From the NCBI GenBank assembly GCA_012522575.1, contig JAAYKE010000056.1, positions 1 through 58,461 on the forward strand: 58,461 nucleotides of DNA, read 5' to 3'. The stretch is from Armatimonadota bacterium. GTDB lineage: Bacteria; Armatimonadota; UBA5829. How positions within the stretch are numbered: the first letter of the stretch is position 1; the number at the start of each line of letters is the position of its first letter. Below are positions 2,499 to 40,354 of the stretch, piece after piece. The notes below the pieces were generated by a model, which had not been told where the DNA came from, did no database searches, and was given only the letters and a program-made list of their open reading frames with translations. Both the position numbers and the translations under genes were made by a program.

Positions 2499-2527
2499 TT
2501 GCCAGTTTGATCTATATAAGGCATACT
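2499..2527 (+). promoter_or_regulatory. Putative sigma70-type promoter for paralog 1 (TTGCCA-N17-CATACT)
   Basis: Same spacing and -10 as promoters of paralogs 2 and 3. Confidence 0.6.
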
Positions 2528-2626: not shown

Positions 2627-5600
2627 ATGATGAGTCAAGATCGCTCCAATCGTTTTTTGTTGCTGGCGTCAGCGCTGATACTGATGATGCTGGCAACCAC
2701 GGCCAGCGCCGCTACGGTAGCTGTGCGTTTCTTTTCCGAAGGGGAATTGTGCACGGTCTCTCGAGCGGTATCTAATGACGTCCCGCTGGCCGAATCGGCA
2801 GTGCGGGCTTTGCTAGCAGGCCCGTTCATTGAAGAAAAAGCTGTCGGAATCACTTCTCGGATTCCGGCAGGAGTGACCATCAAAAAGTTGTCGATCACAA
2901 GCGATACCGCTCAGATCGACCTGTCTGCAGATGTAGTTGCCGGCCTCGACGAAGTCGGACTGAGAGATATTTTCGACCAGTTCCGCTCCACTTTAGGGGA
3001 CTTCCCATCTATTAAGTCCATCCAACTGACCTCCAATGGCAAGCCCTTGGCTTATTACCTGCCTGCTGTTCCCGAAGTAGGGGAACCCGCAAGGCCTCTT
3101 GTTAAGGGCAACGCGGTTGGCCTTGGCGGCAGGAAGGTATGCGTAGGGCCATCGCACGGTCGAGTTTGGAACGGCAGCAGTTGGGGCTGGATGAGATCGG
3201 ACCCATGCGGATTTGGCGAAGCAGTCCTTGAAGACACCAACAGCATCAGACTTGTCCAGTTTTTGAAGCAATATATCGTACAGGACGGCGGGACTTTTTT
3301 CACTCACAGGGAGCTTGATGAAACCAACTGCTGTCATCCCCAAGCTAATATGCCCTGGTGGAAGATGTGCACTTTATCCTGGCTGATGCACAATGGCTTT
3401 CCCTGCTCTGTCTGGGGCACATACACTGGCAACTGCGGCGCAGAGACAGCCACCGGGCGATCCAACGACGACCTTCGCGCTCGACCTCTGTATGCGGACT
3501 ATGTCGGCGCGGATATCTATATCTCCCATCACACCAATGCAGGCGGAGGCACGGGAACCGAAACCTGGCGCGACTCCAAAATGTCATACCCCGCGCACGT
3601 TGCCAATAGCCTTGCGCTGGCCACTGCAGTCAACAGCGGGATAGTCAACACCATTCGCAGCACTTTTCCGGGTGAATCGGAGTGGCGGGATAGAGGTGTT
3701 AAAGACTCCGCTGCAGGCTCCGGAGAGACTCGCATCCCCAACCGACCGGCTTGTCTTATCGAGCTTGCTTTCCACGACCATTGCACGAGGGACGGAGTCT
3801 ATCTAACCGACGATTTCTTCCGATCTTTGTCCATGTGGGGCATCTACAGCGGAATATGCACTTATTTCGGCAATACTCCCGGCTGGGCCAAGTATTCCGG
3901 CGAACTTGTATCCGATACGATTCCAACCTTGATGAACGCCGGGCAGACCTACAACGTTTCGGTGACTCTGAGAAACCGCGGAGTCTGCTGGATGAATACC
4001 TACGGATTCAAGCTCGGTGCAGTCGACGGCAGCAACCCTATTTCCGCTGCCACTCGCCAGACAATATCCGGCACAGTGAGGCCGGGCAACACATACACAT
4101 TCAATTTCACCATGACGGCTCCTGTCGCAGGCGGCACATATACCACCAAGTGGCGAATGATTCGCGAAGGCTATGAATGGTTCGGCCCAACCCTTACCAA
4201 GAACATAACTGTCACTACTCAGGATGACGATGAGCCTCCGACCGCGCCGACCAATTTGCGCGTGACCGGCGTAACTTCATCGAGCATATCCCTTGCCTGG
4301 AATGCCTCTACAGACAACATCGGCGTGGCAGGATATCGCATATTCCGCAATGGAACACAGATTGGCACTGCGACCGGAACGACCTACAATGACACCGGCC
4401 TTGCCAATAATACGACCTATTCATATCAGGTCGACGCTTACGACGGCAAGCCGAACTATTCAGGCAAAAGCAACTCAGTTCAGGGCACGACTATTGCTGT
4501 CATATTCGAGGACGGCTTCGCGAACCTGAACAACTGGGTTCTCGACCCGGTCGCGTCAGGCAACACAATGCCGACGTTGTCCACCGCTCAGAACCACGGC
4601 AGTATAACAGGCGCGAACTCTGTGTTTATGGCAGGGGAAGTAGCAAACTGGGTTTATCACGACTTCTCCACGAACCTGACCTCCGGAGGCTACAGATCCG
4701 GCACTCTGTCCGGCTGGATTTATGACAACGCTGTAAGCGGTCTGAGAGTAGCCTTGCGAGCGTATATGTATGATGCCGCTGGCAACAACTCGACCATGTA
4801 TTGGATCGGGGTGTATCAGCTCGACCCGCCTGGCATTCCGACTCATTATATTGGAGCGATCCTTACGAGCAGTGGTTGGCAGTACCACGACCTCGGCGTT
4901 CGTTCTGCGGGATGGCACAAACTCGCTATTGAGGTCCTGCCATACACTGGCTCAAACGATCTCAAGTTCTATGTGGACGGCGCCCTTAAGCAGACCGCAT
5001 CTCAGCCTGCAAGCGCCGCCAGTTCAACTGTGCGACGAACATATCTTGGGTTCAACTATAAGACCAATCAGCCTGTGTATTGGGATGACATCACGCTTGA
5101 GTCTGTTCCTCCGGCTGCTCCGACCAACGTTTCGGGTGCTGCGCTATCGACGACTTCCATAAGATGGAACTTCACCGACAAGGCGAACAACGAGATTGGT
5201 CATCGAGTTTACAACGGCTCTACCAAGGTAGCCGAGCGCGAGGTGTTTGATATAAGCTATGTCGACGAAACTAACCTTGCGCCTAATACGACCTACAATC
5301 GCACCGTCAAAGCCTATGCCGGTATTCTTGAAAGCGCCGGAACTGCGGGCAGTGGCACGACGCTATCTGTCCCGCCGAGCACATCGAATGTGACCTGTGA
5401 CAAGAACGTCAACGTCACATACGGCGATGACAAGTTCACCTTCACCGCAGTCGGCGGATTCGGCGCGGGCAAGGTGGATCATTATATGGTAGTCTGGGAC
5501 AAGCAGGCCACCCATACCTGGACAGGCTCTGAAGCGACGTGGTCAAGCGGGACTTTGGTTCAGACCGCGGCTTCTACCGGCAGTTGGTATCTGCACCTGC

Positions 5601-6208
5601 GGGGAGTCAACTCCGCAGGCGTAGCGAACGGCACTCTTGATCTTGGCCCGTTCATTTATAATAGCGACAGCGTCGCTCCGCAGATCAACTCCGTAACCGT
5701 TGCTCCTGCGATGGTTATCGGCGGAGATGCGGTTCACGTATCAGTTGATGCAACGGATAACGTTGGTGTTACCGGCGTAAAGGCCAATGGCGTTTCTCTG
5801 ACTAACTCCGGCGGTAATATATGGACAGGCGATATCGTCGCTTTGGCCGGATTGGGAGTCCACCCCGTGAGCGTAGTTGCATCTGATGCTTCCGGCAACA
5901 ATGCCACAGACGCATCAGGATCATATCTGACCGCTCTTATTCGCGGAGCCTCCAACAAGGCTGCCTGGGGAGTCGAAATGAACGCCGCTTCCACTATATA
6001 CCTCTTCAAGTTCTGGGGTAAGGTAGTTGAGGTGGACAACAATAAGTTCACCCTCGACGATGGCTCCGGCTCGCCGATCACGGTTATTGCGCCGGGCTAC
6101 AAGACCAAGGTCTCCACAGGGGACTACGCAGCCGCTCGAGGAATCCTCAGCATCGACGGCCTGTCGCGAGCGATTCAGAGCGAGGTTAACTGGATAACTA
6201 AATACTAG
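2627..6208 (+). CDS. Giant secreted protein: signal peptide, GerMN, Amidase_3-like N-acetylmuramoyl-L-alanine amidase, NBR1-type Ig, FN3, LamG-like, Ig-like, OB-like C-terminus (paralog 1)
   Basis: GerMN-like N-terminus; putative Zn/catalytic residues in 'VGPSHGR', 'LEDTNSIRLV', 'ISHHTNAGG', 'CLIELAFHDH'; NBR1-Ig-like 'GTYTTKWRMIREGYEWFGPTL'; FN3 'APTNLRVTGVTSSSISLAWNAS'. Confidence 0.8.
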   Translation: MMSQDRSNRFLLLASALILMMLATTASAATVAVRFFSEGELCTVSRAVSNDVPLAESAVRALLAGPFIEEKAVGITSRIPAGVTIKKLSITSDTAQIDLSADVVAGLDEVGLRDIFDQFRSTLGDFPSIKSIQLTSNGKPLAYYLPAVPEVGEPARPLVKGNAVGLGGRKVCVGPSHGRVWNGSSWGWMRSDPCGFGEAVLEDTNSIRLVQFLKQYIVQDGGTFFTHRELDETNCCHPQANMPWWKMCTLSWLMHNGFPCSVWGTYTGNCGAETATGRSNDDLRARPLYADYVGADIYISHHTNAGGGTGTETWRDSKMSYPAHVANSLALATAVNSGIVNTIRSTFPGESEWRDRGVKDSAAGSGETRIPNRPACLIELAFHDHCTRDGVYLTDDFFRSLSMWGIYSGICTYFGNTPGWAKYSGELVSDTIPTLMNAGQTYNVSVTLRNRGVCWMNTYGFKLGAVDGSNPISAATRQTISGTVRPGNTYTFNFTMTAPVAGGTYTTKWRMIREGYEWFGPTLTKNITVTTQDDDEPPTAPTNLRVTGVTSSSISLAWNASTDNIGVAGYRIFRNGTQIGTATGTTYNDTGLANNTTYSYQVDAYDGKPNYSGKSNSVQGTTIAVIFEDGFANLNNWVLDPVASGNTMPTLSTAQNHGSITGANSVFMAGEVANWVYHDFSTNLTSGGYRSGTLSGWIYDNAVSGLRVALRAYMYDAAGNNSTMYWIGVYQLDPPGIPTHYIGAILTSSGWQYHDLGVRSAGWHKLAIEVLPYTGSNDLKFYVDGALKQTASQPASAASSTVRRTYLGFNYKTNQPVYWDDITLESVPPAAPTNVSGAALSTTSIRWNFTDKANNEIGHRVYNGSTKVAEREVFDISYVDETNLAPNTTYNRTVKAYAGILESAGTAGSGTTLSVPPSTSNVTCDKNVNVTYGDDKFTFTAVGGFGAGKVDHYMVVWDKQATHTWTGSEATWSSGTLVQTAASTGSWYLHLRGVNSAGVANGTLDLGPFIYNSDSVAPQINSVTVAPAMVIGGDAVHVSVDATDNVGVTGVKANGVSLTNSGGNIWTGDIVALAGLGVHPVSVVASDASGNNATDASGSYLTALIRGASNKAAWGVEMNAASTIYLFKFWGKVVEVDNNKFTLDDGSGSPITVIAPGYKTKVSTGDYAAARGILSIDGLSRAIQSEVNWITKY

Positions 6209-6232
6209 CCGAAAGGTGTGTAGCATCCACGC

Positions 6233-6263
6233 AATCGACCCGGGCGCCCAACCCGGGTCGATT
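6233..6263 (+). terminator. Strong inverted repeat after paralog 1
   Basis: AATCGACCCGGG-cgcccaa-CCCGGGTCGATT, 12-bp perfect stem. Confidence 0.65.
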
Positions 6264-6304
6264 CAATTAATGCAGTCCGGAACGCCGCAAGTTTGACAAA
6301 TTGG

Positions 6305-6333
6305 TTGACATTGGCGGACTCGAATGTTACTAT
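6305..6333 (+). promoter_or_regulatory. Promoter of tRNA-Gly (TTGACA-N17-TACTAT)
   Basis: Consensus hexamers immediately upstream of the tRNA. Confidence 0.65.
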
Positions 6334-6349
6334 AATTTTACTCTGTGGT

Positions 6350-6425
6350 GCGGGAGTAGCTCAGTTGGTAGAGCGCTAGCCTTCCAAGCTGGATGTCGCG
6401 AGTTCGAGCCTCGTCTCCCGCTCCA
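6350..6425 (+). tRNA. tRNA-Gly(TCC), CCA encoded
   Basis: GCGGGAG...CTCCCGC acceptor, D-loop AGCTCAGTTGGTAGAGC, anticodon loop CTTCCAA, T-loop GTTCGAGCC, terminal TCCA. Confidence 0.95.
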
Positions 6426-6548
6426 TTCCTGTATATTTGATCCAACCTCATTGATATTGTATCTTTTCCCATAATAAGAAGTGACTCGGCAATTACGCTG
6501 TTTTGATGCCGCTGGCGAATATGTTCCTCATCTGCCTGATAATCTCAG

Positions 6549-6577
6549 TTGACGCTTGGCTCAATGTAAGGCATACT
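6549..6577 (+). promoter_or_regulatory. Putative promoter for paralog 2 (TTGACG-N17-CATACT)
   Basis: Matches promoters of paralogs 1 and 3, including spacer end AAGG. Confidence 0.65.
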
Positions 6578-6668
6578 GACATTGTACAAAGAAAAGAGTG
6601 TGAATGCTCTAGCCGGGCGGACCTGCGACATCGCACGCAGAAATCCAGCCGGACAATAAGGAGGTATT

Positions 6669-9600
6669 ATGCGAAATCACAATGCTCGATGTGCTTTGAT
6701 TATTGCACTCATTATGCTGGTGGCGTTGACTGCCACCGTATCTTACGCAAACACTGCAGCGGTGCGTTTCTTCTCAGAGGGAAGACTGATCGCTGTTAAT
6801 CGGGCAGTAACCAACGATGTTCCATTGGCGGAGGCAGCGGTCAGAGCATTAGTTGCCGGGCCATTCGTCGAGGAAACTGCCGTTGGGATCACTTCTCGAA
6901 TCCCTGCCGGAGTCAAGATTAAGAAACTCTCCATAGCGGGCAGCGTTGCGGAGATTGATCTTTCTTCGGAGATACTTATCGGATTTGATGAGGCCGGACT
7001 AGTCGATATTTTCGACCAGTTCCGCTCCACTCTGAGCGAATTTCCCTCGATTATGACGATCAAGCTCACCAGCGGAGGCAAACTTCTTTCTTCATTTCTA
7101 CCCTCTGCACCTGAAATAGGGGAGCCGGCTGCTCCGCTTGTAAAGGGCAACGCTGTCGGTCTGAGCGGCAAAAAAATCTGCGTCGGGCCGTCGCACGGGC
7201 GACTCTTCACCGGAACCTGGTATGGCTGGCAGAGGGGCGACTTCTGCAACTTCGGCGAGGCAGTCCTTGAGGACACAAACAGTATCAGGCTCGTTCAATT
7301 CCTAAAGCAATATATAGTTCAGGACGGCGGCACTTTCTCCAGCCCGCGTGAGCTTGACGAAACCAACTGCTGCCATCCGGACACAGGTATGGCGTGGTGG
7401 AAGATGTGCGCCATGTCCTGGCTCAAAAAGACAGGTGTTCCGTGCTCGGTTTGGGCTAGTTCCTCGGGTAACTGCGGGGCTGAGAACGCTACTAACCGCA
7501 ACAGTGACGATATCCGCTGTCGACCTCTTTATGCGGACTATATGGGCGCAGATATATACATTGCGCATCATACCAACGCCGCCGGCAGCAGCCCCAGCAA
7601 CGCCAACGGAACAGTTACATATCGTGACTCGACCATGACATATTCAGCCCATCGCACCAACAGCCTTAACCTGGCAACTGCGATTCAAAACAACATCGTC
7701 GCCACAATTCGCAACACATTCCCCGGTGAGAGCAGTTGGTATGATCGACATGTGCTGGACTCAGCGGGCGGATTCGGCGAGATTCGCATTCCCAACAGGC
7801 CTGCCTGTCTCATAGAGCTTGCCTTCCACGACAACTGCGAGCGTGACGGCCTATACCTCACCGACGATTTCTTCCGCTCACTCAGCGAGTGGGCAGTCTA
7901 TAAGGGCATTTGCGAATACTTCGGCAACACCCCTACGTGGGATAAGTATTCGTGCGAACTGGTCTCAGACACCATTCCAACCTCGATGATGCCCGGACAA
8001 ACCTATAATGTCTCTGTCACAATGCGAAACCGCGGCGTCTGCTGGATGAGCACCTACGGTTTCAAACTTGGTGCGTTCGGCGACAGCGACCCGTTTGCAT
8101 CCACCCGCCACAACGTCTCCGGCACCATTCGACCGGGACAGACATTTACCTTTAACTTTACGATGAAGGCTCCAATGATTCCAGGGACATACGTCTCCGA
8201 CTGGCAGATGTTGCGAGAGAGCTACCAATGGTTCGGTCCTAAGCTCGTAAAGAATATCACCGTAGTGAGCATAGACGACGACGAGCCGCCGACCGCGCCG
8301 ACCAATTTGCGCGTAACCGGGACAACTTCGTCTAGCATATCCCTTGCATGGAACGCTTCTACGGACAACATTGGCGTTGCCGGCTATCGCATATTCCGCA
8401 ATGGAACTCAAATAGGCACTGCGACTGGAACGACCTACAATGACACCGGCCTTGCCAATAACACGACCTATACTTATCAGGTTGACGCTTACGACGGCAA
8501 GCCCAACTATTCTCCTAAGAGTAATTCGGTGCAGGCAACTACTATCGCTGTAATATTCCAGGATGGATTTGCGAACCTCAACAACTGGGTTCTGGATCCT
8601 GTAGCGGACAACAACGTCATGCCTACGCTTTCAAGCGCGCAGAACCACGGCAGCATATCCGGCGCAAACTCGGTCTATTTCCCCGGAAATGTCGTTAGCT
8701 GGATCTACCACGACTTCTCGCCTAACCTTACCTCAGGGGGTTACAGGTCAGGCGTTCTCTCCGGTTGGATGTATGATAACGCAGTTAGCAACCTGAGAAT
8801 TGGTATGAGAGCGTATACATATAACTCATCCGGATCTAACAAGGGTTTGTACTGGATCGGCGTATCAAACGGCAACCCGCCCGGCATTCCGCTCAAATAC
8901 ATGGCGGCGGTATATGATAGCGGTTGGATTTACCACGACCTTGGCGATCGATCTGCGGGGTGGCACAAGTTTACCATCGAGATTCTGCCATACACCGGCT
9001 CAAACGATCTCAAATTCTACGTGGACGGAGCGCTTAAGCTGACCACTAACCAGCCCGCCAGCGTGGCTAATACCGTCTTGAGACGCGCATATCTGGGCTA
9101 CAACTATACGCCCAACCAGCCTACCTATTGGGATGATATCACCCTCGAATCGACCGCTCCTGCCGCACCGACCAACGTTTCGGGAACTGCTCTGTCGACG
9201 ACTTCCATTAGATGGAACTTCACAGACAAGGCGAACAACGAGATTGGTCATAGAGTGTACAACGGCTCTACCAAGGTAGCCGAGCGCGAAGTAATCGATA
9301 TCAGCTATGTTGATGAGGCTGATCTGCAGCCTAACACGACCTACAATCGTACCGTCAAGGCTTATGCGGGTACCTTGACTAGCGTAGGAGCTAACGGCAG
9401 TGGCACGACGCTATCTGTCCCGCCGAGCACATCGAATGTGACCTGTGACAAGAACGTCAACGTCACATACGGCGATAACAAGTTCACGTTTACAGCAGTC
9501 GGCGGATTCGGCGCGGGCAAGGTCGACCATTATATGGTAGCCTGGGACAAGCAGGCCACCCATACCTGGACAGGCTCTGAGGGGGCGTGGTCGAACGGGA

Positions 9601-10256
9601 CTTTGGTTCAGACCGCAGCTTCTACCGGCAGTTGGTATCTGCACCTGCGGGGAGTCAACTCCGCAGGCGTGGCCAACGGCACTCTTGACCTTGGCCCGTT
9701 CATTTACAATAGCGACAGCGTTGCTCCGACTATTAACTCAGTCTCCGTCGCTCCTGCGATGGTTCTCGGTGGAGATGCTGTTCACGTGACTGTAGATGCG
9801 ACTGATAACGTTGGTGTCACCAGCGTCAAGGCTAACGGTGTTTCTCTTACCAATACTGGTGGAAACATCTGGGCTGGTGATCTTTTTGCGTCCGGCGCAC
9901 TTGGCAGTCATTTCATCAGTGTAGTAGCTCAGGACGGCGCGGGCAATTCCGCTACGGACACTTCCGGAAGCTACTTGACTACTCTGGTTCGCGGAGCCTC
10001 CAACAAGTCTGCCTGGGGAGTTGAGATGAACTCAGCTTCCACTATCTACCTCTTCAAGTTCTGGGGCAAAGTGACCGAGGTGGACAACGACAAGTTCACC
10101 CTCGACGATGGCTCCGGCTCGCCGATCACGGTTATTGCGCCGGGCTACAAGACCAAGGTTTCCACTGGAGACTACGCAGCCGCTCGAGGAATCCTCAGCA
10201 TCGACGGCCTCTCGCGAGCGATACAAAGTGAGGTCGATTTGATAACTAAATACTAG
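6669..10256 (+). CDS. GerMN-amidase-NBR1 Ig-FN3 giant secreted protein (paralog 2)
   Basis: Same architecture as 2627-6208; long nearly identical DNA blocks in FN3, Ig and C-terminal regions; RBS aaggaggt. Confidence 0.8.
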   Translation: MRNHNARCALIIALIMLVALTATVSYANTAAVRFFSEGRLIAVNRAVTNDVPLAEAAVRALVAGPFVEETAVGITSRIPAGVKIKKLSIAGSVAEIDLSSEILIGFDEAGLVDIFDQFRSTLSEFPSIMTIKLTSGGKLLSSFLPSAPEIGEPAAPLVKGNAVGLSGKKICVGPSHGRLFTGTWYGWQRGDFCNFGEAVLEDTNSIRLVQFLKQYIVQDGGTFSSPRELDETNCCHPDTGMAWWKMCAMSWLKKTGVPCSVWASSSGNCGAENATNRNSDDIRCRPLYADYMGADIYIAHHTNAAGSSPSNANGTVTYRDSTMTYSAHRTNSLNLATAIQNNIVATIRNTFPGESSWYDRHVLDSAGGFGEIRIPNRPACLIELAFHDNCERDGLYLTDDFFRSLSEWAVYKGICEYFGNTPTWDKYSCELVSDTIPTSMMPGQTYNVSVTMRNRGVCWMSTYGFKLGAFGDSDPFASTRHNVSGTIRPGQTFTFNFTMKAPMIPGTYVSDWQMLRESYQWFGPKLVKNITVVSIDDDEPPTAPTNLRVTGTTSSSISLAWNASTDNIGVAGYRIFRNGTQIGTATGTTYNDTGLANNTTYTYQVDAYDGKPNYSPKSNSVQATTIAVIFQDGFANLNNWVLDPVADNNVMPTLSSAQNHGSISGANSVYFPGNVVSWIYHDFSPNLTSGGYRSGVLSGWMYDNAVSNLRIGMRAYTYNSSGSNKGLYWIGVSNGNPPGIPLKYMAAVYDSGWIYHDLGDRSAGWHKFTIEILPYTGSNDLKFYVDGALKLTTNQPASVANTVLRRAYLGYNYTPNQPTYWDDITLESTAPAAPTNVSGTALSTTSIRWNFTDKANNEIGHRVYNGSTKVAEREVIDISYVDEADLQPNTTYNRTVKAYAGTLTSVGANGSGTTLSVPPSTSNVTCDKNVNVTYGDNKFTFTAVGGFGAGKVDHYMVAWDKQATHTWTGSEGAWSNGTLVQTAASTGSWYLHLRGVNSAGVANGTLDLGPFIYNSDSVAPTINSVSVAPAMVLGGDAVHVTVDATDNVGVTSVKANGVSLTNTGGNIWAGDLFASGALGSHFISVVAQDGAGNSATDTSGSYLTTLVRGASNKSAWGVEMNSASTIYLFKFWGKVTEVDNDKFTLDDGSGSPITVIAPGYKTKVSTGDYAAARGILSIDGLSRAIQSEVDLITKY

Positions 10257-10291
10257 GTATGAGATACATATCATAATATGTGCACATCGAA

Positions 10292-10317
10292 TCGGCCCGG
10301 GCTTCGGCTCGGGCCGA
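10292..10317 (+). terminator. Hairpin terminator after paralog 2
   Basis: TCGGCCCGGGC-ttcg-GCTCGGGCCGA. Confidence 0.65.
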
Positions 10318-10377
10318 AAATCATAAGATTATGATAGATGCCGGGCTTTGAATTGTCACCGTTTCCATAATAATTGG

Positions 10378-10406
10378 TTGACTCTTGCCGGATTATGCGG
10401 CATACT
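10378..10406 (+). promoter_or_regulatory. Putative promoter for paralog 3 (TTGACT-N17-CATACT)
   Basis: Shared spacing and identical -10 hexamer with paralogs 1 and 2. Confidence 0.65.
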
Positions 10407-10529
10407 TAGGCTGGATAGCATTTTTTAATGAGCGCCTCCAGGCCGACCCGGCAGGCGCACCTTCCATGTGCCTCCTGCCTCGGCCTGCGCATTTGTGCGT
10501 AAAGGCAAATTATTGGATGAGGGGGTATT

Positions 10530-13500
10530 ATGAGAAAGTTTTGCGCTCAACGCTCCGTTTTGTTGGTCGCCATAGTGTTATTGGTATTTATGGCCAGCAT
10601 GGCTTATGCCAACACTGTGGTAGTTCGTTTCTTCGCCGATGGCAGACTGGTTACAGTCAACCGGGCAGTCTCAGACGGCGTTCCGTCTGCTGAGGCCGCA
10701 GTCCGGGCATTGGTTGCCGGGCCGTTTGTGGAAGAGGTTGCAGTAGGTCTCTATTCGCAAATCCCGGCCGGCACTAAAGTCAAAAAGCTCTCGATAGCGG
10801 GCAGTGTTGCCGAAATCGATCTTTCTTCGGAGGTTCTGACTGGCCTCGATGAAGTCCTTATAAAGGACATCTTCGATCAGTTCAGCTCCACTCTTGGCGA
10901 TTTCCCGTCCGTTGCCTCAATTAAACTCACCTGCAACGGCAAGCTCTTGTCATCCTATCTGTCGTCTGCTCCATCCATAGGAGAGGCCGCTGCTCCGCTC
11001 ATCAAGGGTAATGCAGTCGGCCTGAGCGGCAAGAAAATCTGCGTCGGAGCTTCGCACGGTCGATTCTGGAATGGCAGCGGCTGGTATTGGCAGCGCGGTG
11101 ATAGCTGCGGATTCGGCGAGGCGGTGCTTGAGGACACCAACAGCGTCAGGCTGGTGCAGTATCTCAAGCAGTATATCACCCAGGACAGCGGCACATTTTA
11201 CAGCGTGAGAGAGCTTACCGAAAGCAACTGCTGCCACTCAGCTACCGGTCTGGCCTGGTGGAAGATGTGTTCTCAATCGTGGCTGCGCAATATCGGCGTC
11301 CCATGTTCGGTATGGGGAAGCTACACCGGCAACTGCGGAGCTGATACCGCTGCGGCACGCGGCAACGACGATATCAGATGTCGTCCGCTTTATGCTGATT
11401 ACGTCGGCTCGAATATTTATATTGCTATGCACACCAACGCAGGCGGCGGCACCGGTACCGAGACTTTCCGCGATACAGCGATGGAAAAACCGGCCCACGT
11501 TGCCAACAGCCTTACGCTTGCTAACGCCGTGAATAATGGAATGGTCAACACCATCCGCAACACTTTCCCCGGTGAGTCCGGATGGGTCAATAGAGGTGTT
11601 AAGGATGGGCAGGGCAACTACGGCGAGATCCGCATCCCCAACCGACCTGCCATTCTCGTCGAGCTTGCTTTCCACGACCATTGCACCAGGGATGCTGTCT
11701 ACCTGAAGAACGAGTTCTTCCGATCTCTGACAATGTGGGGAGCCTACAGCGGAATCTGCTCATACTTCGGCAATACTCCCACTTGGGGCAAATATTCCTG
11801 CGAGTATGTCTCCGACACCATTCCGACGACTATGAATCCTGGTCAGACCTATAACGCCACCATCACCTACCGTAACCGTGGCGTGGTCTGGATGAGCGCA
11901 TACAACTTCAAGGTTGGCGCAGTATCAGCCAACGACCCTCTGATGACGACTCGGCTTTATCCCGTATCCGGGACGATCAAGCCGGGAAGCAATGCTACTT
12001 TCACTATCACTTTGAAGGCTCCCGCCACTGGCGGAGCCTATACCACACAGTGGCAGATGATTCGAGAAGGTTACGAGTGGTTCGGCCCGAAAGTTACAAA
12101 GAACGTAACTGTCGTCGACATTAACGACAACGAGCCGCCGACTGTTCCGACAAACCTGAAGCGTTCTTCGGCTACCAAGACCAGCATCAGCCTGAGCTGG
12201 ACCGCTTCCACAGACAACAATGCAGTTGCGGGCTATCGAATATATCGCAACGGCGCCCAGGTCGGCACTTCCGCCACCAACTCCTACACCGACTCCGGTT
12301 TGGCTGCCAACACAGGCTACACCTATCAGGTCGATGCCTATGACGCAAAACCGAACTACTCGGCAAAGAGCGCCGCGTTTGAGACCGGCACTGGCGGCAC
12401 GTGGACAGCAGAGGCTTCTATGTCCTGCTATACCCGCAGCGGCACTCCTGATGTATGCGGATATGGCGGCATCGCAGTCGGCTACAGCTCAACTGCAACC
12501 CTGCTTAGCAGACGCGGACTGGCTCAGTGGGATATGGACGGCGCGCCGACTCAGGCGGAAGCTCTGAACACATCAAACAGTGTTCGAGTGAAGCTGAATC
12601 AATACACCCAGTATAGCGCCACCAAAGAGGCGTCAATATCGTTGTATAAGGTAAACAACGATTGGAACCAAAGCAACGGCACCTGGAACAATGTCGGAAT
12701 TGGAGCCAAATACTCAGGCGCGACAGTGACGTGTGTTGATGTTGCCGACCGGACATGGCAATGGAACGGCAATACACAGGGCGTTCCTCCTGCCAATAGA
12801 GGCGTTTATATCAAAAACGATTCATCCGAATCCGACGCTAATTTCGCAAAAGTATTCGAAAGCGCCTACAACTCAGGCGCAACGGGCAAAGTTCCGAGGC
12901 TGGAGATAGACTACATCGACCTTACCGCGCCTAAAAACTGCTCCATCAAGATCAACGGGGGCGCGACTCATACCAAGTCAGCTACCGTTACCTTGACCCT
13001 TGCCGCGACTGACCCGCTCAGCGGTATGTCTCAGATGCAGTTCAGCACCAACGGTACGAGTTATTCTACCGCAGAGGCTTATGCGACCTCCAAGAGCTAC
13101 ACTCTTCCGTCTGGCGATGGATCCAAGACGGTCTACGTGAAGTTCAAGGATAAGGTCGGCAACTGGTCTGCGGCCGTATCCTCATCGATCATTCTGGACA
13201 CGGTTGCTCCGACAATCAGCATATCAAACCCGTCGGAGTCGTCGACCAATGTTGGTCCGGTGGCCTACACGGTGACTTATGCCGGAGCCAGTGAAATTAC
13301 TCTGGCCAACAGCAATATCACGCTCAACAAGACCGATTCCGCCAACGCGGGATCGATAGCCGTCAGCGGAACGGGACTGACCAGCCGAATAGTGACTCTC
13401 TCTGAAATTACAGGCAATGGAACCCTTGGTATCTCCATCGCCTCTGGAACAGCCAAAGACGAGGCGGGCAACCTTTGCGCGGCTGCCGGGCCGAGCGTTG

Positions 13501-13790
13501 TCTTTGATGTATTCAGCCATATCGACTCCTATGGTATGAGCAATAAGGCAGCCTGGGATGCGATCATGAGCAACGCAGCGGCAGGCAAGGCGTTTACCCT
13601 GTGGGGTAAGGTTACTGCGCCGATTGATGCCAACAGCTTCTTTGTTGATGACGGTTCCGGTATGCCGATAAAGATCAACTTTGCGAACCACGGATTCAGC
13701 GCATCTGACTACGTGTCCGCAACCGGAGCGCTTGACGTGAGCGGTTCCGCGCCTGTTATGAACGCGCTTACAATTAAAAAGCAGAACTAG
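10530..13790 (+). CDS. GerMN-amidase-NBR1 Ig-FN3 giant secreted protein with divergent C-terminal half (DNRLRE-like and Ig-like modules) (paralog 3)
   Basis: N-terminal ~600 aa collinear with paralogs 1-2; then 'WTAEASMSCYTRSGTPDVCGYGGIAVGYSS...RRGLAQWDM' resembles a DNRLRE module; C-terminal OB-like 'FTLWGKVTAPIDANSFFVDDGSG'. Confidence 0.8.
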   Translation: MRKFCAQRSVLLVAIVLLVFMASMAYANTVVVRFFADGRLVTVNRAVSDGVPSAEAAVRALVAGPFVEEVAVGLYSQIPAGTKVKKLSIAGSVAEIDLSSEVLTGLDEVLIKDIFDQFSSTLGDFPSVASIKLTCNGKLLSSYLSSAPSIGEAAAPLIKGNAVGLSGKKICVGASHGRFWNGSGWYWQRGDSCGFGEAVLEDTNSVRLVQYLKQYITQDSGTFYSVRELTESNCCHSATGLAWWKMCSQSWLRNIGVPCSVWGSYTGNCGADTAAARGNDDIRCRPLYADYVGSNIYIAMHTNAGGGTGTETFRDTAMEKPAHVANSLTLANAVNNGMVNTIRNTFPGESGWVNRGVKDGQGNYGEIRIPNRPAILVELAFHDHCTRDAVYLKNEFFRSLTMWGAYSGICSYFGNTPTWGKYSCEYVSDTIPTTMNPGQTYNATITYRNRGVVWMSAYNFKVGAVSANDPLMTTRLYPVSGTIKPGSNATFTITLKAPATGGAYTTQWQMIREGYEWFGPKVTKNVTVVDINDNEPPTVPTNLKRSSATKTSISLSWTASTDNNAVAGYRIYRNGAQVGTSATNSYTDSGLAANTGYTYQVDAYDAKPNYSAKSAAFETGTGGTWTAEASMSCYTRSGTPDVCGYGGIAVGYSSTATLLSRRGLAQWDMDGAPTQAEALNTSNSVRVKLNQYTQYSATKEASISLYKVNNDWNQSNGTWNNVGIGAKYSGATVTCVDVADRTWQWNGNTQGVPPANRGVYIKNDSSESDANFAKVFESAYNSGATGKVPRLEIDYIDLTAPKNCSIKINGGATHTKSATVTLTLAATDPLSGMSQMQFSTNGTSYSTAEAYATSKSYTLPSGDGSKTVYVKFKDKVGNWSAAVSSSIILDTVAPTISISNPSESSTNVGPVAYTVTYAGASEITLANSNITLNKTDSANAGSIAVSGTGLTSRIVTLSEITGNGTLGISIASGTAKDEAGNLCAAAGPSVVFDVFSHIDSYGMSNKAAWDAIMSNAAAGKAFTLWGKVTAPIDANSFFVDDGSGMPIKINFANHGFSASDYVSATGALDVSGSAPVMNALTIKKQN

Positions 13791-13808: not shown

Positions 13809-13870
13809 GTCCGGCACATTCGACCGGACACGCTATGCGGCCTGTCCCTGATCCGGGGCGGGCCGCAATT
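13809..13870 (+). terminator. Two consecutive hairpins after paralog 3
   Basis: TGTCCGG...CCGGACA followed by GCGGCCtGTCCC...GGGGCGGGCCGC. Confidence 0.5.
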
Positions 13871-19075: not shown

Positions 19076-19103
19076 TTGACAATTGCAGTGTTTGTGCCAT
19101 AAT
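19076..19103 (+). promoter_or_regulatory. Putative promoter of the RloA-RloB pair (TTGACA-N16-CATAAT)
   Basis: Consensus -35 and near-consensus -10 upstream of ATG 19146. Confidence 0.55.
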
Positions 19104-19145
19104 ACAATATATCCAAGCAATATTATCTCGTTAGGAGCCAATAAA

Positions 19146-20489
19146 ATGTTAGTGAGTTTTTCGCTGGAAAACTGGATGTCTTTTCGCGATGAGACCACTT
19201 TTTCTATGGTTGCCAGTAGGGAGCGTCAGCACGGAAACAGAGTTCCCCGGCTCCAGAAATACAAGACAAGAATTTTGCCTATAGCGGCGATTTATGGTGG
19301 GAATGCGTCTGGAAAAACTAATTTCTTTTCAGCGCTGAGTTTCGCACAGTGGTTAATTGTCAGAGGCACTCAGCCTGATAGCTTGATACCTGTTTCCCCG
19401 TTTCTTTTGGATTCCAGCGCTGAACGTCGCCCATCAAAATTTCGTTTTGAACTGCTGATAGATGAGAATATTTACGAATACAGCTTTGCTGTTACCTACA
19501 AAGAGATCGTAGAGGAAAAATTTGTATTGGTAACTGGCAACAGCGAAAAAGTGATATATCATCGAATCAACCAAAAACCTAGTGTCGGTTTCAATGAAGA
19601 TGCTTCATTCATAAAGCGCGTTTTCGAAAGTACCCGGGATAATCAGCTTTGGCTAACCAATTTGGTGTCATTGAAAGTAGACAGATTTCGTCCGGTATAC
19701 GATTGGTTCAAAGATGTTCTTGAATTGGTGGCGCCGGATTCTCGCTTCAAGCCATTCGATCTTTTCTATGATGATGAGCACCCGCTGTTCTCCACCATGA
19801 ATGAGTTGCTGAAGCAGTTTGATACTGGTATCGCGCGCTTGGGTGGTGAGGATGTCCCGTTCAGCAATATACCTTTGTCGCGTTCATTGGCGACCAAATT
19901 GCAGGAAGATGTCAAAGAGGGAGATAGCGTAGGTATAATAAGTGAGCCGGGGGGCGATCGATTCGTCGTGACACGCAAAGGCGAGGAGTTGGTGGCAAAA
20001 AGACTTGTCACGTATCACCCGAAAACTGATGGCACCGAGGTCACATTTGATGTTCGTAAAGAATCGGATGGTTCGAAGCGTGTAATTGATTTATTACCTG
20101 CCTTTCTTGAACTGTCGGCTCCAAATGCAAAAAAAGTATACATTGTTGATGAGGTCGATCGTAGCCTGCACACGCAATTAACTCGTGCCTTGCTTGAAAT
20201 GTACTTGTCAACTTGCACCACAGATAGCAGGGCGCAGTTGCTGTTTACTACCCACGATGTTTTGCTTATGGATCAAGATCTCCTTCGAAGGGATGAAATG
20301 TGGGTGGCTGAACGCGATGCGTCTGGAGCGTCTACTATGTTCTCATTCAGTGAATACAAGGAGATTCGATACGACAAGGATATTCAAAAAAGCTATTTGC
20401 AAGGTCGATTGGGCGGAACACCACGAATACTATTGGGAGGAGCATTGGCAAACAGGTGTCTTACGGAGCCAAACGAGAAGGAAGGTTAA
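19146..20489 (+). CDS. AAA-family ATPase, RloA/AbiLi-like
   Basis: [24 protein letters not shown]; Walker A '[16 protein letters not shown]'; Walker B '[14 protein letters not shown]'; '[13 protein letters not shown]'. Confidence 0.85.
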
Positions 20490-20490
20490 T

Positions 20491-21081
20491 GTGAATAGAC
20501 GCAAATTTGCGCGAAAACCTGCAATTCGTGAGTATCGCAAATTGTTTATTATTGCCACGGAAGGCAGGAAAACAGAACCGTCGTATTTTGGCATATTTAA
20601 CAGCGAAAATAGTACTGTGCGAGTTACTTGTCTCAAAAGTGGCCACAACAGTTCTCCACAGCAAGTATTGAGGAAAATGAATGCTCGCCTCAAAAAAGAT
20701 GAAAATCGAAAGTTTCCTGGCGAATCCTGGTTGGTGGTAGATCGGGATCAATGGGCTGAAGAACAGTTATCTAAGCTGTGTGCCTGGGCTAAATCGGGCA
20801 AAAATCGCGGATTTGCTCTCAGTAATCCGAAATTCGAATATTGGTTGCTCCTCCACTTTGAGGATGGCAATAACATCAAATCAGCGCAGGATTGCAGCAA
20901 CAGACTGAGACGGTTTCTCCCCAATTACGACAAAAAAGTAGATAGCCACACAATAACTCCAGAAAACATCGATAAAGCAATTAGCCGTGCCAGGAAACGT
21001 GACAATCCGCTCGTCGATTGGCCGCGCGATCTTGGAGGCACAACTGTTTACAGATTGGTTGAAAATATACTTAAGGCTTGA
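20491..21081 (+). CDS. RloB/AbiLii-like protein (predicted TOPRIM-like nuclease component)
   Basis: GTG start 1 nt after upstream stop with gaaggaagg RBS; 'KLFIIATEGRKTEPSYFGIFN', 'WLVVDRDQWAEEQL', 'FALSNPKFEYWLLLHFED'. Confidence 0.85.
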   Translation: MNRRKFARKPAIREYRKLFIIATEGRKTEPSYFGIFNSENSTVRVTCLKSGHNSSPQQVLRKMNARLKKDENRKFPGESWLVVDRDQWAEEQLSKLCAWAKSGKNRGFALSNPKFEYWLLLHFEDGNNIKSAQDCSNRLRRFLPNYDKKVDSHTITPENIDKAISRARKRDNPLVDWPRDLGGTTVYRLVENILKA

Positions 21082-21086
21082 TCAAA

Positions 21087-23201
21087 TCACTCAGCCTTGG
21101 GCTCAGATTTCTTCTCTCGAATCCTATCCTTAATCTCATCATATTCCAGCCCGTGCTCTTCGGCCAGCATATCCTCAGTGAGCGTGCCGGTCAGCCAGGC
21201 TCCGTTCATCGGGTAGATATCCGGATTGAATATGACAAAGTAGAAGTGCCACACGATAATCGCCAGCACCGCCAGCCATGCCTCATAGAAGTGTATGACG
21301 CGGGCGATATCCCAGCCCAGCTTAGTCAACAGGTTCATAAAGTAGTTGTTGGCCCACATGACGATACCGGTGATCGTCATAATCACCGATCCCCACAGCA
21401 AAGCCCAATACTCCGCCTTCTCAACGTAGCTGAATCGGCCCATCTTCGGCCTCTCCTTGACAAGGCCAAAGCCATACAACACAACCTTAATCACATCGAC
21501 AACGTCCTTGCGACGCGGCCACATATCCTTGACAAGCTGCCTGCCTCGTGCGTTGAAGGCGACATAGACGCCATGAATCAGGCAGGCCGCTATCATCCCA
21601 ACTCCCGCAATCCTGTGCAGCAAACTGCGCAGTTCAAAGACATTGGGACTTAACTTGCGAATACACACCACCCACCACGCATCAGGGTAGTGCAGCATAA
21701 AACCGGTGATCGCAAGCACAAAGAAGCTCAACATCATCAAAATATGCTGTATGCGCTCGAATAACGACATGCGGATATACAACCCGTGCAGATCGTGCAG
21801 CTTGAAGTGCTTGCGCAGTTTTTTGAAGAAGTCCAGGAAGTTGTGCGCAAACATCCCTCCGATAACGCCGATAATCAGCAGGGCATAGATAAGCCCGATC
21901 CACCAGAGCACAGGCTGCTGCTTCTGGCTCACCGCAACGTGCACTTTTCCAACGGCAAATCGCTCATTTGCGCCGGGATGACACTGTCCGCAAGTCTGCG
22001 GGATATTCTTTTTGCTCACGCTAGATGTCGGATCGCTGGACGGTTTAATGTCGTGTGCGGTATGACAACTCGCACAGTTGGCCACGTTCACGGCTCCGCC
22101 GCGCATAGCCAGGCCGTGATAGCTATCCGAAAACGTCTGGAACCGGTCGCTGCTGATGCCGTATTTCTCAGAAAGCATCAAAGAGCTATGGCACGTGCCG
22201 CAGACCTGTTCCGCTACGTTCTTGGGAGCGATCGGCGACTTCGGATCACTGGCTTTCAGTATATTGTGCTCGCCGTGACAGGTGGTGCACACAGGAGCGT
22301 CCTTGCTTCCTTTTGCAACCGCCTTGCCGTGAATGCTGCCGACATACTCTTTGGCAATATCCGGGTGGCATTTTCCGCACGTGGTCGCGAGGTTATCTCT
22401 GTTCACGCTCGACTTGGGGTCGATGCCTTTTTCTATAGTATGGCTGCCGTGACAGTCTACGCAGTTCGCCGCCTCGCCGTTGCCGGATTTCAGGGCCATG
22501 CCATGCGCGCTTGTCTCAACGCCCTTAATAAAATGCGAATTAGGCGTTGTGCGACTGCTTATGCCGGGATTATTCACATGGCAGGACATGCAGGCCTTCT
22601 GCTGTGCGAGCTTGAGCTGGGCCGGGCTGCGCTTTCCGGGATGGAAAATATCTTTCTTATGACAGGCAAAGCAGTCCGGGGCCAGGTTGGATCCTGCCAA
22701 CAGAGCCTTGCCGTGTCGATCTTTGGAAAAGTCGCTATGCGCTTCAGGGTGACACGTCGAGCACGCGACAGACAGCGGCTTGCTCATGTGCGAGCCGTGG
22801 CACTCCTTGCAGGAAGCGCTGATCTGCAAAGGTGATCCGCTGGTCGTAACCTGATCCTTATGCGTAGTGTGCAGCGATGCGGCGTCACTGTGACATCCCA
22901 TACAATCCACAGGGACGATATTGGCAGCATGCGGAATCCTGGCCGCGTCCAGTCCCGTATGGCAATCCGCGCATCCAAATTGTCCGTGCGGAGTCGATTT
23001 TAGCGCGGACTCCCGGACATACACAGATTTTCCCTTGCTGGTGGTCAGGGTTTTGTCGTCGTGGCACATCTGGCACTCGGAATTGTCCTGCGCGGCTGCA
23101 ATTCCGTGAAATGCCAACACAGCGAGGATGAGCGCACAAATCAGGCAGAAATATTGTCGGGTTCGGAATATCCCTTGTAAGCGCATATCGGACCAGATCA
23201 A
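21087..23201 (-). CDS. Multiheme cytochrome c (13 CXXCH) fused to cytochrome b-type membrane domain
   Basis: Counted CQMCH, CADCH, CMGCH, CKECH, CSTCH, CFACH, CMSCH, CVDCH, CGKCH, CTTCH, CGTCH, CASCH, CGQCH; C-terminal TM helices with conserved His ('RIQHILMMLSFFVLAITGFMLHYP', 'LHRIAGVGMIAACLIHG', 'IHFYEAWLAVLAIIVWHFYFVI'). Confidence 0.9.
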   Translation of the reverse strand: MIWSDMRLQGIFRTRQYFCLICALILAVLAFHGIAAAQDNSECQMCHDDKTLTTSKGKSVYVRESALKSTPHGQFGCADCHTGLDAARIPHAANIVPVDCMGCHSDAASLHTTHKDQVTTSGSPLQISASCKECHGSHMSKPLSVACSTCHPEAHSDFSKDRHGKALLAGSNLAPDCFACHKKDIFHPGKRSPAQLKLAQQKACMSCHVNNPGISSRTTPNSHFIKGVETSAHGMALKSGNGEAANCVDCHGSHTIEKGIDPKSSVNRDNLATTCGKCHPDIAKEYVGSIHGKAVAKGSKDAPVCTTCHGEHNILKASDPKSPIAPKNVAEQVCGTCHSSLMLSEKYGISSDRFQTFSDSYHGLAMRGGAVNVANCASCHTAHDIKPSSDPTSSVSKKNIPQTCGQCHPGANERFAVGKVHVAVSQKQQPVLWWIGLIYALLIIGVIGGMFAHNFLDFFKKLRKHFKLHDLHGLYIRMSLFERIQHILMMLSFFVLAITGFMLHYPDAWWVVCIRKLSPNVFELRSLLHRIAGVGMIAACLIHGVYVAFNARGRQLVKDMWPRRKDVVDVIKVVLYGFGLVKERPKMGRFSYVEKAEYWALLWGSVIMTITGIVMWANNYFMNLLTKLGWDIARVIHFYEAWLAVLAIIVWHFYFVIFNPDIYPMNGAWLTGTLTEDMLAEEHGLEYDEIKDRIREKKSEPKAE

Positions 23202-29628: not shown

Positions 29629-32600
29629 ATGAAGGATACGATTGCGCGCACCCTTCGTACTATAACTGTTATTGTTGGGGTGATGATGCTGTGTGCTCCT
29701 GTGATGGCCCAGAATGCAATCTGGGGCAGGTACCACTACGACGTCCGCCATAGCGGTCAAAATCCCAATTCAACCGATATAAAGGGTCTGCTTAACGGCC
29801 CCAGTTCTCTGAATTTGATCTGGGTATTCCCGCGCCTTGACAGCGCCTACGACTACCCGGACGAGTCCGCTATGATAGTGGATGACTTCAGCGGAACCGG
29901 GTTCTCAAGAACGGGCAAATGGAGCATCGGGCATCATACCGATGCCTATAACGGCGATTTCCACATGACCAAAACAATCAACGTCGCCACCGGAACTGCT
30001 CCAACGGCGACCTGGTTCTGGCCGTCAAATCTGCCCGCAGGCAAATACCAGGTATATGTATGGGTTCCGCCGGCATCAGGTTTTCTGGCGACATCAAGGG
30101 CGAGTTATACGGTCTATGATGACGCGCACCCCGGCGGGGAGACCTATGTGCTGGACCAAAGCTCCGCAGGAGCCTGGAAGCTGCTCACCTCAGATTATTT
30201 CACTTTTGGAGCAAATGCCAACACCAGGGTAGAGTTGACCGCGCGCGTGCTGGATGAAATTCCTCGAGCAGACTATCCGGATCGCGTTGTAGTGGCGGAC
30301 GCGATCAAATTTACGCCTTCGCTGTTGGAGACGGGCATTCAAATCTACTCCTCTCCTGCCAGCGCAGAGATTCCGGTTGAATTGCCTCCGGAAGACCCGG
30401 ATAAAGGCTCTTTGTGGAACGGCAAAGGGCTTTGCACATATATCGGAACGGTCGAGCCGCGTTCGACAGCAGCCAGAAGCGACGATTCTGAACAAACCGA
30501 CGACTACGGAGCCATCTACTGCGTATATGGGATAACACCCACCCTTCAAAACCCTGCGCTCGCCGATGGAAGCCCGGACCCCAATATACCGGACAGCGAA
30601 AAGCTGGTGGCCATATCCAAGTATCTGGGCAAGCCCAAATGGCGATATCCAAACGCTGATCCGACCAAACGCCTGCCCATAGAAGGCCCTATCTCCGGCG
30701 GGATATATTCTTCCCCGACTCTGGTGAAAGCGAAGATCGGCAACGATATTAAGCTCGTCTGCTTTGTTGCTGCGATGGATCATCAAATATATGCCCTTGA
30801 TGCAACCACCGGTAAATTGCTATGGAAAGGCCCCGGCATTACTATCCCCGAAGAGGATGCCGTTGGCTTCAGAAATTATACATTATCCGATCTGCCCAAC
30901 CCTGACTCATTCGGCGGCACATTCAGCTATGCCGAATGCAGCGCCGATGGCGGAAACACCATCACCTGGACTTTTCAGACTACAGACCAAATAAGCGCAG
31001 CCCCCGACGGAGCCGAAGGGTTGTCATATTCGATATATGCCTGGATGCCGGGAGCAGGCGGAACCGGCGGCCGAGCGCGCTCGAATATGGCCACTTATAC
31101 GATTACGTATCAGGACGAATCCGGCAGCCCGAACGAGACCTCCACCGTCACGGTTAATCAGGGAGATCCAAAAGCATACGGCTCCTGGGTTAAGCTGGGC
31201 GGCAGCTTCTTCAACCCAAGCCAGGTCGTTCTCAACAATACGGCAGCCAATGAGCCGCCCGGTTCGGCTGGCGGCCCCGGCAGAGTCGCCAGTGATTTTG
31301 TCGTAGTCGCCGATGCGATAATGATCGTGCCGGATGCCATAGAAGGATTGGGCTACAGCTCGCCGGTCACCGATGCGGAACCTATGATCGGTTCGGAAGT
31401 GTTCGCCAGTCACGTGTTTACCACGAGCGTCAATGGCAGGGCTATGTCCTTTTCGGTTGAATCCAGAGGCTCCAAATATGTTGGTCACCTCGATTGGGTA
31501 TATCCCAGGATCAGGCAGGTGCGATCCCCCAAGCAATCAGAACTCGAACAGCCGTCGTGGGGTGATATCGGCGCATCCCCTGCTTACAGCGCGGACAAGC
31601 TCTACGTTGCGACTACGGATGGCACTGTGCGATGTCTGCAGAATGTAAAAACGCCAAGCCCCAGCCAGAAGTGGGTTTTCCCGGACGACGTAAATAATGA
31701 TGAAAAAACGGCAGCATTCACCTCATCGCCTACGCTCGACCCGCCGGGCAGACTATATATAGGATCTACGGACGGCATATTCTATTGCCTGAGCATGGAT
31801 ACCGGCGCAGTCGATAAAGGCAACGGCACAATGGGGCCGATATGGCAGTATCCGCAGGCGAGTAGCTCCGGATCGCCGGACTCGCCTCCAACCATAAAGC
31901 CGCCACTGGGAGCGTTCAGATACTCGACCCCGGCTTTGGCGACAGTGCATGGAATCAAGAGGGTATGGTGCGCCAGCACGGACGGACACGTCTACTCATT
32001 TTTGGCCGATACCGGCGAAAGGCTGTATCTGGATGATGAGGGACGCCCGGTCAACCAAACCGGCGACTGGTATGCCGAGCCTTCTCTGATGTCGCCGGTG
32101 CAGGGTTCGGTGGCGCTCGATGGCCAGTCACCGCAGGGAAACAGTGTGATGTATGTCGGCGATATGTCCGGCACATTGCATTGGAGGGACGCGGAAAACG
32201 GCACCACCAACAACTGGGAATATTCGGGTTGGACATGCCCGGATATGTTGTTCTCGTCCCCCAACATTACCAATATAGAGGTGGCCACTACGCCTGTGAG
32301 CTGGGTTTTTGTAGGGTGCGCGGACGGCCACCTGTTTGCATTTACCCGCAGAGGCGGCGGATGGGGAGGCGTATGGCAGGGCGGAGAATGGCCGTTCCCC
32401 GGAGAGCCAAACGACAACTCCAGCAAAACCCAGGCTGCGCCGGAAACCGAAATTCAGTTCGATATATTTGACCAGGACTTCTATAACGCTACAAGCTCTT
32501 TCGAGACTTCAAAACTCGACCCGCTAAAAACAGTCGACTCAACAACGTCAACGGACAGCGACTTTATCGCCAACCACTGGCCCAACAATATCATCGTCAG

Positions 32601-37269: not shown

Positions 37270-38829
37270 TTGAGGTCGTCACGCAAATCCGTGCCTTCAG
37301 CTATAGTCGGCTTGGACATCGGCACAGATTCAATTAAGGTCGCTGAAGCCAAGTTCGCCAGGGATGGCATAACGATAACGGGATTGGGCATCGCGCGGAC
37401 GCCTGAAGGGGCTTTCGATAACGAGGTCATCGCCGATGCGAAGGCTCTTGGAGGCGCAATAAAGGCGCTTCTGGGCGAATGTGGCATCAAGACAAAGAAA
37501 TGCGTAAGTTCCGTCTCAGGAGCTTCGCAGGTCGTGGTGCGCGTCATCAGCGTTCCCAAGATGAGTCAGCAGGAACTGGCTGAGACCATGAAATGGGAGG
37601 TAGAGCGGCACGTGCCATTCTCCCCCAGCGAAATCGTCATGGATTTCCACCCGCTGGATCTGCCCGGCGCAGACCCCGCCGCCTCCGAAATGGACGTGCT
37701 CCTTGCAGTGGCGCAGGAACAGCTCATTCAAAATCATGTAGAAGCCCTTTCCGCCGCCGGCCTCAAGCCTGTGGCCATCGATATCGAGCTTCTGGCTGCC
37801 AGTCGCGCGCTTGTGGATATGTCAGCTAATGGCGCACAAAACGAGACCGTGGCAGTGGTCAACATAGGTGCGACACGCACTGACCTCGGAGTATTCGAAA
37901 ACGGTTTATTGACATTTCCCAGCCCTCCCATCGGAGTCGCTGGAATCAATTTTACAAGGGAAATATCCGAAGCCCTGGGACAGACGCTCGAAGAGGCCGA
38001 GATCACCAAAAGGGAGTTCGCGTCGGTTAAGCTGGATGGTTTCCAGCCTGCCCCTGAGCCTGAACCGGAACCTGCCCCGCCGGCAGTTGAGTCCAGCATA
38101 TTCGATACTGCATTCAGCTCCTCCCCGGACGCTACGAGCGCTTTCAATCTAGGGGATGTTGCGCCGGAGCCCTCCGATGAACTTGCGGCTGAGCCGGCAT
38201 CTCTTGAAGACTTTGCAGATACTACCGAAGGGCCGGTATTTGATCTCTCCGGCGATATGGGGCCTACCTTCGATCTGGGCGCAGATGAGCCTGCAGCCGC
38301 CAGCGATTCCATTGATCTGGGAGGGCCTGTTGAGGATACCCCTCCTGTTGCGCCTACTTTTGACCTTGATGATGAGCCTGAACCTGAGCCGGAAACGCCG
38401 GCTGAGCCGAACTTTGACCTCAGTGACGCGGGCGCAGAAACCGATCACGGCGAACAGGCGGAACCGAGCACGGCTCCCGTGCCTGTGGCTCCTGTGGCAG
38501 GATTCGAGGACGGCTCGACGGAGGCCGCAGTATTTCAGGCTATATCAGGGGTGCTGCTGGATTTGGCCAACGAGCTTAGAATGTCACTGGATTACTATAA
38601 CAACAGATATTCGAAGATGCCCGACAGGGTGTACCTGTGCGGCGGCACTGCCAGAATGCCAAATCTGGATAAGTTCCTGAGCCAGGAGCTTGGCGTGCCG
38701 GTTGTGGTGGCCGACCCTGTCAAAAATGTGACGGTCAAAACGCCGGGGGCTTCACCGCAGTATCTGGAAGAGATTTCGCCGATGCTCTCCGTGTCTATAG
38801 GGCTGGCGATTAGAGATATGATTGGTTAG
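37270..38829 (+). CDS. pilM: Type IV pilus assembly ATPase-like protein PilM with internal acidic insertion
   Basis: 'AIVGLDIGTDSIKVAEAKF', 'MKWEVERHVPFSPSEIVMDF', 'VAVVNIGATRTDLGVF', 'YLCGGTARMPNLDKFLSQELGVPV'; TTG start. Confidence 0.93.
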   Translation: MRSSRKSVPSAIVGLDIGTDSIKVAEAKFARDGITITGLGIARTPEGAFDNEVIADAKALGGAIKALLGECGIKTKKCVSSVSGASQVVVRVISVPKMSQQELAETMKWEVERHVPFSPSEIVMDFHPLDLPGADPAASEMDVLLAVAQEQLIQNHVEALSAAGLKPVAIDIELLAASRALVDMSANGAQNETVAVVNIGATRTDLGVFENGLLTFPSPPIGVAGINFTREISEALGQTLEEAEITKREFASVKLDGFQPAPEPEPEPAPPAVESSIFDTAFSSSPDATSAFNLGDVAPEPSDELAAEPASLEDFADTTEGPVFDLSGDMGPTFDLGADEPAAASDSIDLGGPVEDTPPVAPTFDLDDEPEPEPETPAEPNFDLSDAGAETDHGEQAEPSTAPVPVAPVAGFEDGSTEAAVFQAISGVLLDLANELRMSLDYYNNRYSKMPDRVYLCGGTARMPNLDKFLSQELGVPVVVADPVKNVTVKTPGASPQYLEEISPMLSVSIGLAIRDMIG

Positions 38830-38835
38830 ACGATT

Positions 38836-39597: not shown

Positions 39598-39657
39598 TAT
39601 GTGCCGGAACGTAATTTGTAATGGATTTTCGGCTCGACATTGTGCTAGGATATAGGG

Positions 39658-40335: not shown

Positions 40336-40354
40336 TCCCAGGAGTGTTGTCTGA

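Follow-up and report, generated by a model that had tools for sequence, protein, structure and literature searches.

Giant secreted proteins with a GerMN-Amidase_3-FW head as members of a module-swapped set of predicted peptidoglycan amidases in an Armatimonadota genome

The window analysed here, a stretch of 58,461 nucleotides from an Armatimonadota bacterium, carries three giant genes on its + strand: gene 1 (2627..6208; P0001, 1193 aa), gene 2 (6669..10256; P0002, 1195 aa) and gene 3 (10530..13790; P0003, 1086 aa). A first-pass annotation had described them as three collinear giant reading frames, each with a signal peptide and GerMN, Amidase_3, NBR1-type Ig (FW) and FN3 domains, and this description was confirmed by Pfam. 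Germane (PF10646) scored 38.9-49.0 bits in the three proteins (cut-off 23), Amidase_3 (PF01520) 34.0-39.5 bits (cut-off 27) and N_BRCA1_IG (PF16158) 32.4-38.5 bits (cut-off 28), and fn3 lay above its curated cut-off in each. The N-termini, read by eye, are signal-peptide-like, with an A-x-A site and without a lipobox. In the gene 1 product the signal peptide is followed by GerMN (residues 50-141), Amidase_3 (about 170-411), the FW domain (434-529), FN3 (540-613), a tail of about 660 residues and an OB-like cap comprising about the last 85. Gene 2 has the same architecture and tail family, such that the two proteins are alike over their full length. In gene 3 the same head is joined to a different tail, made up of a DNRLRE domain (645-793) and a Big_7/OmpL47-like Ig domain (about 811-890), so that beyond the head only the C-terminal OB-like cap is held in common. 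The three copies are thus unequal. The small C-terminal domain 'WGKV..VD...F.LDDGSG' was correctly noted by the annotation as the end of all three proteins. The cap (5954-6205, 10002-10253 and 13515-13787) is shared across unrelated secreted proteins. The AlphaFold model of the tail had a pLDDT of 33, and none of the Pfam cell-wall-binding domains LysM, SH3, SPOR and AMIN was recognised in the giant amidases.

The three genes are collinear, but they are not simply consecutive, since a tRNA-Gly (TCC) gene lies between genes 1 and 2 (6350..6425, + strand); moreover, four further full copies are found elsewhere in the genome. Each gene is preceded on the + strand by its own promoter-like motif: TTGCCA-N17-CATACT upstream of gene 1 (2499..2527), TTGACG-N17-CATACT upstream of gene 2 (6549..6577) and TTGACT-N17-CATACT upstream of gene 3 (10378..10406). 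In general form, TTGAC-N18-CATACT, the motif sits about 100-130 bases upstream of each of the three start codons. With up to one mismatch allowed it occurs four times in the window (0.65 expected), three of these at genes 1-3, and the genome as a whole (3.06 Mb in 189 contigs) contains 11 exact matches, compared with 1 to the reversed pattern. Of the 11, four precede GerMN-amidase genes and several others precede proteins with signal-like starts; the motif may be no more than a promoter type in common use in the organism. On the 3' side, GC-rich inverted repeats without a T-run were seen by eye after gene 1 (gacccgggcgcccaacccgggtc, 6238..6261, + strand) and gene 2 (cggcccgggcttcggctcgggccg, 10293..10317, + strand), and a scan placed a terminator-like hairpin after gene 3 (13836..13867, + strand), although that scan gave no excess over shuffled sequence. 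Given the intervening tRNA gene and the separate promoter-like motifs, we rejected a single operon as the likely arrangement.

Several other features of the window are recorded here in their own right. An AAA_21 ATPase gene followed by one for an RloB-like protein (19083-21081), called as AbiLi and AbiLii by PADLOC, is a candidate anti-phage pair. Next to it on the - strand, a 704-aa protein (21087-23201) fuses a multihaem cytochrome c to a cytochrome b561-type membrane domain. A 2473-aa protein (29629-37050) combines Golvesin_C with beta-propeller-like repeats, and a PilM-like gene, further ORFs, an STN protein and a secretin (37270-43704) make up a type IV pilus or secretion cluster.

The head of gene 1 (residues 27-531; 2705..4219, + strand) was modelled confidently by AlphaFold2 (pLDDT 91.8, pTM 0.90). 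Foldseek matched this model in the PDB to NBR1/ILRUN FW domains (TM by target 0.72-0.81), to Amidase_3 enzymes (Ami1, AmiP and an endolysin EAD; 0.65-0.80) and to GerM (6gz8; 0.65). The amidase motifs quoted in the first-pass annotation are present, and the set H177, E202, H302 and E379 (P0001 numbering) was invariant in all 47 different homologous heads compared. In the model these residues occupy strand ends and a helix start, the positions expected for amidases, and the predicted zinc ligands sit at the canonical sites of the confidently modelled fold; as far as such a model can tell, the annotation's refuting case of ligands lying apart found no support. A profile alignment matched the HTN histidine and the ELxF glutamate to their counterparts in CwlV and CwlD, so that two of the four residues were aligned residue by residue. 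The giant heads also have invariant features of their own, namely an ELxFHD motif and the cysteines C194, C386 and C411, and the FW tryptophans W420, W455, W509 and W518 are kept in 44-47 of the 47.

Two spacings in the amidase domain bear on how the enzyme might be controlled. Compared with an ordinary amidase of the same genome, the giant heads have about 47 extra residues in the loop that links the TR-like motif to the HTN histidine, an insert that could alter specificity or regulate access. In AmiA, AmiB and AmiC the autoinhibitory block follows the HTN motif. The corresponding distance in the giant heads, from the HTN histidine to the glutamate, is 77 residues as against 74 in the genome's ordinary amidase; this ordinary length appears to leave no room for an AmiC-type block, and comparison of the spacings revealed no evident one.

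These results support the view that the giant proteins are multimodular secreted amidases with intact catalytic residues, and peptidoglycan catalysis is likely. They could instead be adhesins or binding proteins that keep the amidase fold for recognition only, as their giant multi-Ig architecture and the protein binding of eukaryotic FW domains (PMC9233695) would allow. However, a dead enzyme would be unlikely to keep all four catalytic positions unchanged across 47 of 47 homologs, and we regard this explanation as very improbable.

The nearest named relatives of the genome place it in Armatimonadota. Searching it for further heads of this kind gave seven in total, the three in the window and one each on contigs C68, C69, C30 and C167. 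The multiplication of amidase genes proposed by the first-pass annotation is thus a real paralogous expansion, with tandem copies in other loci. The tails and FW domains are not confined to this head. In the protein adjoining the C167 copy (P0008), an Amidase_2 head carries the same tail as genes 1 and 2, and FW domains are likewise found behind Amidase_2 heads on C110, C165 and C84 (the last slightly below the FW cut-off) and behind C39-like peptidase heads on C6. The interchangeable heads are therefore GerMN-Amidase_3 (seven), Amidase_2 (four) and C39-like peptidase (two or more). Two adjoining C39-like peptidase proteins carry FW, CarboxypepD_reg and FN3 (L099:1-5857). An Amidase_2 protein elsewhere (L017:3697-8019) has an N-terminal domain, not named by Pfam, that looks lysozyme-like by eye with its catalytic glutamate replaced. 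About 13 secreted proteins, some of them without a hydrolase head, have the OB-like cap as their extreme C-terminus; its profile matches were weak and mostly to OB-fold families (RMI2, BOF and RPA14). The C68 copy (P0004) ends in a dockerin-like sequence, at 18.5 below the cut-off of 22.9. A cellulosome-like assembly, considered because of this end, was rejected since no cohesin match was found in the genome. The proposal of a single dedicated system was not supported: the genes appear to be promoted separately, a tRNA gene separates two of them, and all three belong to a set, spread over the genome, in which modules have been exchanged and some members have Amidase_2 or C39-like heads instead.

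The expansion is not recent. In a tree of the heads, those of gene 1 and of the C69 copy group with heads from a sister species and that of gene 3 groups with C167, placing the paralogs before the split from the sister species. Synonymous divergence between heads is high to saturated. A recent tandem duplication or an assembly artefact was rejected, given this saturation and the orthologs in the sister species. Where dS is unsaturated, dN/dS of the heads is about 0.1, indicating purifying rather than positive selection. Divergence is also uneven along the genes. Between genes 1 and 2 the four-fold-site divergence falls from 0.66 (0.60-0.73) in the head to 0.39 (0.34-0.45) in the tail and is as low as 0.15-0.20 in some stretches; in other pairs the low patches lie elsewhere. 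Uneven synonymous constraint is possible, but hardly accounts for patches that shift place from pair to pair, and repeated recombination or gene conversion among the copies gives the best account of the pattern.

Such patchwise recombination, together with variable tails and several heads for different bonds, would suit lysins aimed at living neighbours whose targets change, and the amidase part does resemble phage endolysins. On the other hand, diversification has proceeded under purifying and not positive selection, and no cognate immunity gene was noticed beside the genes, so that dedicated predatory or competitive lysins seem to us distinctly unlikely. The resemblance to phage proteins is itself limited: matches, to Paenibacillus endolysins, cover only about 30% of the head, namely the amidase part, and on the phage matches obtained here capture of a phage lysin was rejected.

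Giant heads were found in 14 of 201 sampled Armatimonadota genomes. Within the organism's own family the distribution is patchy, with heads in three genera (g1, g3 and g6) and none in three others (g2, g4 and g5), and several other genomes of the class have them. Heads also occur in some Planctomycetota and Verrucomicrobiota MAGs, which may reflect transfer or mis-binning. Tandem neighbours recur (L045, L058 and L070 to L075, where L058 and L072 are apparently the same contig region): six further loci of the class and one Planctomycetota MAG hold two or three copies in a row. The genome also encodes ordinary Amidase_3 proteins (on C34, C161, C26 and C65), which, taken with the patchy distribution, makes a role outside the cell more likely than one in maintaining the core wall.

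Our preferred reading is that the giant proteins are secreted zinc-dependent peptidoglycan amidases with interchangeable heads and tails, most likely used on other cells; we would put its probability at roughly 55%. Each gene product would be exported by Sec and, we assume, cross the outer membrane. Zinc would be bound by H177, E202 and H302, with E379 as the catalytic base (P0001 numbering), and the enzyme would act as an N-acetylmuramoyl-L-alanine amidase, cutting between MurNAc and the stem peptide. The GerMN domain in front may position or stabilise the amidase as a partner in cis. Behind the amidase, the FW domain together with FN3, Ig-like and CBM-like modules and the OB-like cap could hold the enzyme on surfaces or partner proteins. 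The most likely use would be breakdown of the peptidoglycan of other cells, dead or living. Three considerations lead us to prefer this use: close relatives can do without the giant family, the genome has ordinary amidases as well, and exo-enzymes carry tails of a similar kind. MurNAc itself has no genomic support as a food, since the genome lacks both AnmK and a MurQ above the cut-off, although the amino acids of the stem peptide would need neither. A 685-aa ORF elsewhere in the genome (C188:14003-15637) has a split MurQ similarity below the family cut-off and is perhaps a GKRP-like double-domain protein.

The same proteins might alternatively remodel the organism's own wall or surface layer, as redundant autolysins for cell separation, a sheath or a biofilm matrix. 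Amidase_3 enzymes are classic autolysins, a stand-alone amidase-GerMN pair occurs almost throughout the phylum sample and hence seems housekeeping-like, and the secretin with its PilM-like neighbour implies an envelope to remodel. Yet ordinary Amidase_3 genes are already encoded, sister genera lack the giant family, the long FN3/Ig/CBM-like tails are atypical of septal amidases, and these tails are common to other head types. We therefore consider own-wall remodelling rather unlikely. Of the envelope-remodelling or predation/biofilm system envisaged by the first-pass annotation, the multimodular secreted amidases with intact catalytic residues remain, but sequence cannot separate the three roles.

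The annotation had linked GerMN and Amidase_3 to spores, but the Spo0A C-terminal domain was not found in the genome, which makes a spore role unlikely. We rejected a spore or germination system as a working idea; the membership of the domain in the GerMN family is unaffected. GerMN was found in 37 of 41 Armatimonadota genomes, mostly as a single stand-alone gene. A phmmer search with one amidase as its seed, the genome's own from C161, showed an Amidase_3 ORF adjoining the stand-alone gene in 29 of 30 loci (L018 and L118-L146, one per genome). Fusion in one lineage and adjacency elsewhere form the classic pattern of functional partners. Indeed, amidases can depend on a dedicated partner, as CwlD does on GerS in C. 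difficile (PMC8496864), and fusion, adjacency and this precedent together suggest that GerMN is an amidase partner in cis. In some relatives' heads (G003 and G006) GerMN falls under the Pfam threshold, and so it is perhaps not essential. More tentatively, GerMN may be a general partner of Amidase_3, in cis or in trans, acting as activator or positioner outside sporulation. The amidase-GerMN gene pair would then be ancestral in Armatimonadota, one lineage having used the fused pair as a head for giant extracellular enzymes that degrade peptidoglycan and form a combinatorial set with recombination among its members.

The individual domains all have known relatives. The amidase part is like Amidase_3 autolysins and endolysins (CwlV, 1jwq; CwlD, 7rag; Ami1; AmiP) in fold, in its HxG / E / H / E set and in the bond it is predicted to cut. 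It differs from them in the roughly 47 residues inserted ahead of the second zinc histidine, in the ELxFHD motif and in C194, C386 and C411; in the giant proteins it is also preceded by GerMN and followed by FW, FN3 and a giant tail. The single GerMN fold resembles that of B. subtilis GerM (6gz8, 6gzb) by sequence and model, but GerM is a sporulation protein with two GerMN domains and no amidase fusion, in contrast to this genome without Spo0A. In CwlD:GerS a dedicated activating partner stabilises zinc binding by the amidase (PMC8496864); GerS, however, is a separate lipoprotein. The FW domain has the fold of its NBR1/ILRUN counterparts (4ole, 6vhi; TM by target up to 0.81) and shares their conserved tryptophans, although here it would be extracellular and comes immediately after hydrolase heads. 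FW domains had been described in bacteria before, including in XRE-family regulators (PMC9233695, PMC9582228). The modular autolysins surveyed in PMC8051824 likewise combine catalytic and accessory domains in varied order, but GerMN, NBR1 and Armatimonadota are unmentioned there. Our literature search (GerMN with amidase; Armatimonadota amidases) returned nothing on the GerMN-Amidase_3-FW order or on a swapped set. What appears new, in that we found no description of it, is thus the domain order and the shuffled set.

The near-constant pairing of GerMN with Amidase_3 in one phylum, together with the fused forms, turns the non-spore role of GerMN into a simple biochemical question. As to the organism itself, its phylum is uncultured, and a complement of 13 or more modular hydrolases, including 11 amidases that have two unrelated folds but share their tails, would make it a candidate degrader of bacterial cell walls in anoxic habitats.
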